Assembly: GCA_016929465.1 (NCBI GenBank)
Contig: JAFGIT010000364.1
Span: 1-6,710 of the forward strand
From: JAFGIT01 sp016929465 [NCBI: Candidatus Coatesbacteria bacterium]
GTDB lineage: Bacteria > B130-G9
Direction of reading: 5' to 3'
DNA length: 6,710 nt
Below the pieces are notes generated by a model that was not told the DNA's origin, did not search any database, and saw nothing but the letters and a program-made list of their open reading frames with translations. This document shows, one piece after another, positions 5,288 to 6,710 of the stretch. Positions within the stretch are counted from its first letter, which is position 1. The number at the start of each line of letters is the position of its first letter. Position numbers and translations under genes: made by a program.

Positions 5288-5348
5288 GGGCGGAAACAAG
5301 CTGCCGCCTCTGCTACAGCTAATCCCGGGTCAATGAAATGGGAAATTC

Positions 5349-5771
5349 TCAGAAGCCTCCGTCTTGATGAGCCGCCGGCACCACATAGCCTCTGCAGGTC
5401 ACTTGGTTATAGATGACTCAATAGGCGTGGATGAAGCCCCCCTCATCGACGCGAAACTTGACATAGCCGTAACTGGCAGTCGTTGGCATCCAGGTAGGCA
5501 CCGAGGGAGTCGTCGAAAATATCAACTGCTCCCTCTGCCGGATGCTGAACATACTGCACTCGGAGTTTCCCAAGATGTCAAAAATTCGGATGCTGACAAT
5601 GTCGCCGGTCTCCTCCGAGCCATTCACAAAGATAAGCAGAGTGTACCAATCGTCTCCGTTCTCCCAGTAGGGAATCAGGCCGTGACCCTTCGCGGAGTCC
5701 CAATCCGCAAAACCAATGCCGCCTGCCATCGCAAGCATCAATGTCAGAATTGCGACGCAAAATCTCCGCAC
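5349..5771 (-). CDS. Small secreted protein, third tandem paralogue, with an in-frame UGA at codon 118
   Basis: I do not recognise this family. The first part (5771-5421, 117 codons) starts MRRFCVAILTLMLAMAGGIG, a clear Sec signal peptide with likely cleavage after FA, then DWDSAKGHGLIPYW and WYTLLIFVNGSEETGD. It is interrupted by UGA at 5420-5418. The same frame then continues for 22 codons (VIYNQVTCRGYVVPAAHQ...) to a second UGA at 5351-5349, in exact correspondence with the C-terminus of the two sibling proteins upstream. The UGA replaces the conserved Cys of HAYCVIYN in the second copy. I prefer GTG 5771 because TGAGG lies 5 nt upstream; ATG 5810, 1 nt after the previous stop, is possible and would add 13 polar residues. 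Read conventionally, the product ends at 5418. It may be a recoded gene or a recently broken one. Confidence 0.7.
5418..5420 (-). other. In-frame UGA at a conserved cysteine position
   Basis: The context is GCC TAT TGA GTC ATC TAT, against TAT TGC GTG ATC TAC in the second paralogue, so a single C-to-A change separates Cys from UGA. Selenocysteine insertion or a nonsense mutation are the two main readings. Confidence 0.8.
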
Positions 5772-5776
5772 GTATG

Positions 5777-5781
5777 CCTCA
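5777..5781 (-). promoter_or_regulatory. Ribosome binding site favouring GTG 5771
   Basis: TGAGG lies 5 nt upstream of the GTG at 5771 and inside the longer alternative beginning at ATG 5810. The shorter start gives a standard signal peptide. Confidence 0.5.
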
Positions 5782-5811
5782 GCTGAATGCGTGTCCAAGT
5801 TAGACCGCATA

Positions 5812-6264
5812 TCAGAAAAGATCCTCGGGGCGGAATGCTGGGATAGAGTAGCCAGTGCCGGTCATAAAATTGTAGATCACGCAATACGCGTGGATGGCGC
5901 CTCCGTCCTCGACCCTGAAGAGGATGTAGCCATAGCTCGCTGTTGTCGGAATATACGTCTCCAAGTGACGACTGGTGCTAAAAACCTGCATTTCTCCAGC
6001 TCGGATCGTGTAGGCATCCTCAGTTGTGCTGGAGCACTGATTGCCATTTGTGTCGAAGCATCTGATGTATATCGTCTCGTCATAGACCTCGGAGCCGTTG
6101 ACGAACACGAGAATGGTCGCCCAATTCTCACCGGTTTCCCAGTAACCAAAGCCGCTGCGCACGCAGGCTTCGTCCCAGCCGGCCTCCGCAACTGCCCCTT
6201 GCAAGAAGAGGGCAAAGGCCAGAATAGAAACAACAATCGCATTAGTCAGTAGAATACTTCTCAT
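5812..6264 (-). CDS. Small secreted protein, second tandem paralogue, intact
   Basis: This is the complete member of the family (150 aa); no known family comes to mind. A signal peptide (residues 1-28, MRSILLTNAIVVSILAFALF then QGAVAEA) precedes a mature domain of about 122 residues. Shared blocks are YWETGENWATILVFVNGSE (41-59), a variable loop with NGNQCSSTTED (73-83), IPTTASYGYILFRVEDGGA (105-123) and HAYCVIYNFMTGTGYSIPA (125-143). Alternating hydrophobic and polar residues suggest a beta-sandwich; this is inference. Mature cysteines are Cys34, Cys69, Cys77 and Cys128, an even number that would suit disulfides in the periplasm or outside. ATG 6264 has GAGAGGTG 7 nt upstream; a TTG at 6294 would only add polar residues before the signal peptide. 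It ends in UGA at the normal C-terminus, 1 nt before ATG 5810. Confidence 0.85.
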   Translation of the reverse strand: MRSILLTNAIVVSILAFALFLQGAVAEAGWDEACVRSGFGYWETGENWATILVFVNGSEVYDETIYIRCFDTNGNQCSSTTEDAYTIRAGEMQVFSTSRHLETYIPTTASYGYILFRVEDGGAIHAYCVIYNFMTGTGYSIPAFRPEDLF

Positions 6265-6324
6265 GGAATCACACCTCTCAATCGTGATTTCCAATGTCAG
6301 ATGACCGAAGGGGCCTGCGAATCA

Positions 6325-6710
6325 TTAGAATCCCCGCTCCTGATGCAAGGCAGGGACTGTGTAGCCGGTTCCCGTCATCTGATTATATATGATGCAATTG
6401 ACAATGATGGTCCCGCCATCATCAACACGAAACTTGATAAATCCAAAACTCGCCGTCGTCGGGATCCAGGTCGGAACTGCCGGCGTCGTGGAGAAGAGTA
6501 GCATCTCCCCTTGGCGAATGCTGAACATGTCACCCGTCGTGTTGCTCGAGCCTCACCCGTTGGTGTCGATGAAGCGGATGCTTATCACATCGCCAGTCTC
6601 CTCCGATATATTGACGAAGATCAGCAATGTGTACCAATTCTCCCCCGTCTGCCAATAAGGGATCAAACCATGGCTTCTGGCGGAATCCCAATCAGCCGAT
6701 GCGACCGCAC
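6325..6710 (-). CDS. Small secreted protein, first tandem paralogue, 5' end missing, with an in-frame UGA
   Basis: The frame enters the window as AVASADWDSARSHGLIPYW, so the signal peptide is mostly outside. It shares WYTLLIFVN and SEETGD with the third copy, then reads FIDTNG followed by UGA (6555-6553). Without any frameshift it continues GSSNTTGDMFSIRQGEM, PTTASFGFIKFRVDDGG, VNCIIYNQMTGTGYTVPA, and stops at UAA 6327-6325, the family's normal end. The UGA lies in the loop where the second copy has NGNQC and the third NSEC. Internal ATG 6528 could start a 67-residue fragment, but it has neither signal peptide nor family N-terminus. The stretch of 60 nt to the next gene suggests one operon. 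As with the third copy, it is either recoded or a recent pseudogene. Confidence 0.65.
6553..6555 (-). other. In-frame UGA in the cysteine-bearing loop
   Basis: The context is ACC AAC GGG TGA GGC TCG. Column for column it aligns with Asn75 of the intact paralogue, two residues before its Cys77, in a loop whose length differs among the copies. It is therefore near, but not exactly at, a cysteine column. Confidence 0.65.

Follow-up and report, generated by a model that had tools for sequence, protein, structure and literature searches.

An in-frame UGA interrupts one copy of a small gene family in a Candidatus Coatesbacteria bacterium, and the locus raises the question of whether this codon is read as selenocysteine or ends translation. 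The window, meaning the whole stretch of 6,710 nucleotides that was analysed, is an entire contig, and three tandem copies of the family (w1, w2 and w3) occupy its minus strand at 5349-6710. The original prediction described the UGA of the third copy as replacing a conserved cysteine and put forward selenocysteine, with a one-base nonsense mutation as the plain alternative. The features needed to follow the argument are these:

5349-5810, minus strand: paralogue 3 (w3), with one in-frame UGA; its terminal UGA is at 5349-5351
5418-5420, minus strand: in-frame UGA of w3, at a strand column occupied by Cys in 11 of the 19 other rows with a residue
5380-5407, minus strand: weak hairpin 3' of the w3 UGA, which fits the loose published SECIS model only
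5815-6264 (stop codon excluded), minus strand: paralogue 2 (w2), uninterrupted, with Cys at the w3-UGA column
6328-6708, minus strand: paralogue 1 (w1), its 5' end truncated by the contig end
6553-6555, minus strand: in-frame UGA of w1, in a loop, at a column lacking Cys in the other rows

Translated from the minus strand with UGA kept as a residue, 5310-5810 reads ...GGFIHAY-U-VIYNQVTCRGYVVPAAHQDGGF-stop. The UGA is residue 118 when counted from the GTG at 5771, and 22 sense codons separate it from the terminal UGA. At the column concerned, the local motifs are HAY-U-VIYN in w3, HAYCVIYN in w2 and VNCIIYN in w1. Because the C-terminal ending is common to the copies of the family, the homology of the 22 codons past the w3 UGA is real, as had been claimed. 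The UGA of w1 (NG-U-GSSN) was absent from the original prediction.

We searched 145 genomes with a profile of the family (E 0.001). Matches numbered 22, with 11 in the genome itself and 7, 3 and 1 in three relatives (G001, G002 and G003), all within one taxonomic family; the other 141 genomes had none, and a further scan of genome contigs for relatives yielded no new family members. At contig ends, four partial matches form two pairs that may each be a single gene in halves (G000:C315 10174-10350 with G000:C233 2-226, and G001:C7 with G001:C167), so the 22 matches may represent 20 genes.

All 22 matches from the four genomes were aligned, two rows ending at contig ends before the w3-UGA column. 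The 19 other rows with a residue at this column have Cys (11), Ala (5), Leu (1), Thr (1) or Ser (1). A UGA at such a Cys-type column is notable, not decisive. The original prediction had suggested looking for alternation of UGA and Cys in homologues; none of the other 21 matches, 11 of them from three selA-bearing relatives, has UGA there. No orthologue with further stops or frameshifts, which the prediction would have counted against selenocysteine, was found. Elsewhere in the alignment, N, S, R, Y or A fill the w1-UGA column. The remaining 20 matches contain no internal stop, and the family is thus interrupted twice by UGA and never by UAA, UAG or a frameshift.

The strand Cys at the w3-UGA column and a Cys at the end of strand 3 are mutually exclusive (0, 6, 9, 2; Fisher p 0.002) in the 17 of 22 rows that were counted, with w3 and four gapped rows left out and few clades carrying the pattern. 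Perhaps the loop Cys forms a disulfide with the one or the other. We also considered completion of a loop/strand Cys pair, in which w1 would combine a loop UGA with a strand Cys, w3 a loop Cys with a strand UGA, and w2 both Cys. This idea was rejected, because the w1 UGA lies 1-2 columns off the loop Cys of other rows and 5 of the 11 strand-Cys rows have no loop Cys.

The genome is equipped to make selenoproteins. The search for the machinery recommended with the original prediction, whose author took its absence as grounds against selenocysteine, found selA (560.5 bits), selB (353.8), selD (356.7) and tRNA-Sec (73.1), all above their curated cut-offs, which were exceeded in 1, 2, 2 and 5 of 14 control genomes, respectively. 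Within the taxonomic family, selA is present in all four genomes and selD exceeds its cut-off in three. SelD of the genome itself reads GAG-U-AAKIGPGDL, with UGA at the equivalent place in G001 and G002. FdhA (G000:C24 1115-3124) reads CARL-U-HSATVAGL, with UGA at the classical site followed by a hairpin with a GGTCT loop; the top-scoring FdhA match in each of G001, G002 and G003 is free of internal stops. The genome therefore decodes UGA as selenocysteine in some genes and as a stop in many: UGA accounts for 409 of 905 gene-end-like stops in the sampled contigs, in line with the earlier view that the codon has not been reassigned wholesale.

These results give substance to the reading in which SelB and Sec-tRNA decode the w3 UGA as selenocysteine in place of the strand Cys, with w1 maybe a second case carrying a loop selenocysteine. 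The UGA sits at a Cys-type column ahead of a conserved tail, UGA is used at the classical sites of SelD and FdhA, and two UGAs stand against no UAA, UAG or frameshift in 22 matches. As in the FdhA and SelD selenoproteins, homologous sequence flanks the in-frame UGA of w3, and the genome encodes selA, selB, selD and tRNA-Sec. Unlike them, w3 has no alternation at the column, a replaceable residue, a predicted beta-sandwich, and nothing of their hairpin type. We consider this reading unlikely; the machinery together with a UGA at a Cys-type column is insufficient for a selenocysteine call.

The hairpin evidence depends strongly on the model applied. A published SECIS model, as set out in PMC13188914, allows a loop of 3-9 nt, an upper stem of 4-16 bp, a spacing of 16-37 and an energy of at most -7.5, with G within the first two loop positions. 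In our versions of this loose model, 47% (minimum-energy fold) or 54% (energy) of 600 random TGA contexts pass. w3 passes with a loop GCAG at spacing 22, its stem consisting of 3, 3 and 4 pairs with mismatch breaks, and a second hairpin with loop GAGGCTA at spacing 25 is also permitted; w1 fails (best -6.5). The lineage's own sites provide a sharper yardstick. The FdhA site has a 7-bp stem, a GGTCT loop and a spacing of 18, and the three SelD genes of the lineage have 5-6 bp stems, loops CGGGT or CGGGA and a spacing of 16. A strict rule that asks for 5 or more unbroken pairs, with a G[G/U]-type loop and a spacing of 12-24, and that was set after seeing these four positives from two gene families, retains 4/4 known sites and passes 6% of 20,000 random TGA contexts (11% with 4 pairs). 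Neither the w3 nor the w1 UGA is followed by a hairpin of the FdhA/SelD type, at 5 or at 4 pairs.

Other hairpin tests were less informative. No Rfam SECIS model matched in 5300-6710; since Rfam missed SelD as well, this negative is weak. FdhA matched Rfam SECIS_3 with E 2.5e-7, under the gathering score. The 48 nt that follow the codon gave folding-energy z-scores of no diagnostic value. According to PMC12013277, bSECISearch overlooked 40 or more known bacterial selenoprotein genes (13.0%), so the lack of a standard hairpin leaves room for selenocysteine.

The predicted fold bears on the same question. AlphaFold models of w3 and w1, built on 19 of the 22 rows with three partial rows omitted, had mean pLDDT values of 86.9 and 89.3, and they predict an ASRT/TM1070-like beta-sandwich for the family. 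Among the matches listed, 1nc7 (TM1070) aligned with the w3 model at Z 12.4 (rmsd 2.4, 103 aligned) and with the w1 model at Z 11.7 (rmsd 2.8, 104 aligned), and the next unrelated structures followed at about Z 7. Anabaena sensory rhodopsin transducer matched at Z 9.2 (w3 model against 2ii9) and 8.9. For the ASRAH superfamily, to which ASRT and TM1070 belong, PMC2739507 places a near-invariant Asn at the end of strand 2 and argues for sugar-like ligands. As described there, strand 2 of the present family (21-29 in the model) ends with an Asn in 18/18 rows. Two Trp are near-invariant in the family (17/17 and 17/18 rows), either of which may correspond to the conserved ASRAH Trp at the start of strand 1. 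The family differs from ASRT/TM1070 in sequence, with 7-12% identity, and strand 2 of the w family (WYTLLIFVN) lacks the His/Cys signature of the ASRT-like family. For 6 members, Pfam models gave no match up to E 1, and no Pfam or NCBIfam model matched at its cut-off. A sequence search of the PDB up to E 10 did not return TM1070. Because no sequence profile matched, we call the family ASRT-like in fold and not an ASRAH member.

Given this predicted fold, the proteins may bind a ligand, and they are probably secreted, judging by eye from an N-terminal hydrophobic stretch that in w3 resembles a signal peptide. Most selenoproteins have a thioredoxin-like fold, and an ASRT/TM1070-like fold is not known to have a redox role, which counts against selenocysteine here. 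If selenocysteine were nonetheless true, the result would be a selenoprotein family with a fold other than the usual redox ones, together with a new kind of SECIS. That a Coatesbacteria-type lineage places selenocysteine in a secreted ASRT-like family, at either of two places (the strand Cys in w3, the loop in w1), by way of a divergent SECIS that escapes the FdhA/SelD pattern appears to us very improbable. Among the literature matches listed, none brings Coatesbacteria together with selenoproteins, which we do not take as a claim of absence from print.

Nonsense copies in multi-copy families are already known, and a paralogue-rich control family supplies the background rate. In FGE-sulfatase (PF03781), which has 44 matches in the genome itself, 3 of 84 matches across the four genomes carry an interruption, one of them a TGA, one a TAA and one a TAG. 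The interrupted share of the present family (2/22) is not significantly higher (Fisher p 0.28), and the genome itself gave 2/11 versus 2/44 (p 0.17). These control copies resemble w3 in having one in-frame stop in a recognisable member of a paralogue-rich family. They differ in that the stop of the TGA copy is not at a Cys column, its position being, we presume, usually Lys/Arg, and in that the TAA and TAG copies are known from the match table alone. In the TGA copy (G000:C47 705-707, minus strand), the Pfam domain spans the single in-frame TGA. The hairpin rule accepts this copy with 4 pairs and rejects it with 5. No internal stop was found in the 3 matches to PF02662 in the four genomes.

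A scan of the genome itself for interrupted genes, run on 129 contigs picked by number with 904,518 bases and 905 gene-end-like stops, returned 39 candidates (16 TAG, 13 TGA and 10 TAA), which by eye were mostly neighbouring genes. A Pfam domain check covered two of these 39 sites, one of which is the FGE-sulfatase copy. The scan missed the FdhA UGA within its sample, and its rate is thus a lower bound. Owing to this poor sensitivity, a figure for enrichment of interruptions in the family (2/10 versus 1/905, p 0.0003), which would favour selenocysteine or special decay, was dropped for the PF03781 control.

Constraint on the sequence after the UGAs was assessed by pairwise comparison. Synonymous sites among w1, w3 and two other copies (C235a and C233) are near saturation, with pS of 0.62-0.92 in the longer segments. 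After versus before the w3 UGA, pN was 0.16 versus 0.18 (w3-C233), 0.22 versus 0.18 (w3-w1) and 0.29 versus 0.24 (w3-C235a); for comparison, the uninterrupted pair C235a-C233 gave 0.27 and 0.26 at the same site. For w1-C235a, pN was 0.19 on either side of the w1 UGA. On the protein tree, w1 has a short branch (0.15), and that of w3 (0.37) is about as long as that of the uninterrupted C235a (0.37). These substitution patterns indicate selection on the tails up to recent times, a picture compatible with selenocysteine and with a young nonsense mutation alike.

The saturation of synonymous sites also bears on the quality of the sequence. One or both UGAs could stem from an assembly or consensus error or from a population polymorphism: the assembly is a metagenome-type draft (423 contigs, 86% complete, 3.48% contamination), and 155 bases separate the w1 UGA from the end of its contig. 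We regard this as highly unlikely, since paralogues so strongly diverged offer no evident near-identical repeat for a mis-join, and single-base consensus errors are rare in general.

The best explanation of the UGAs, and in our view a likely one, is that they are young nonsense mutations in a redundant array; the plain alternative of the original prediction thus fits better than its selenocysteine proposal, of which the machinery and the lack of wholesale reassignment are borne out, but not the decoding of this UGA as selenocysteine. The probabilities that we attach to the several readings are judgements and not computed posteriors. The FdhA/SelD hairpin type is missing after both UGAs, the w1 UGA lies outside a Cys column, and at the w3 column Cys is replaced in 8/19 rows and UGA occurs in none of the 21 others. 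Several observations pull the other way. Of one-step paths to TGA summed over the 22 sequences, 10-22% start from any Cys codon and 2-5% at the w3 column, and the Cys-type position favours selenocysteine several-fold. Both stops are UGA, whereas 26-31% of one-step nonsense paths end in UGA by codon paths, and this favours selenocysteine mildly. The 20 other matches have no internal stop, pN stays about equally low past the UGAs, and w3 passes the loose SECIS model. The missing hairpin, the lack of alternation, the replaceable residue, the fold with no known redox role and the nonsense background outweigh the Cys position and the fact that both stops are UGA.

According to the nonsense explanation, w3 and, independently, w1 would each have been hit by a recent mutation to UGA. 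Translation of w3 would then most likely stop in the middle of a predicted strand (93-101 of the mature protein), with loss of the second half of this strand, the next strand and the conserved C-terminus. The w3 tail would still look conserved because the mutation is young; both this youth and termination in the cell are what we infer.

Elsewhere in the window, DUF507 (PF04368) is found as halves in two adjacent minus-strand genes, with 281-586 corresponding to profile positions 95-181 and 623-907 to positions 1-92 (of 182), which looks like one domain divided between two proteins.
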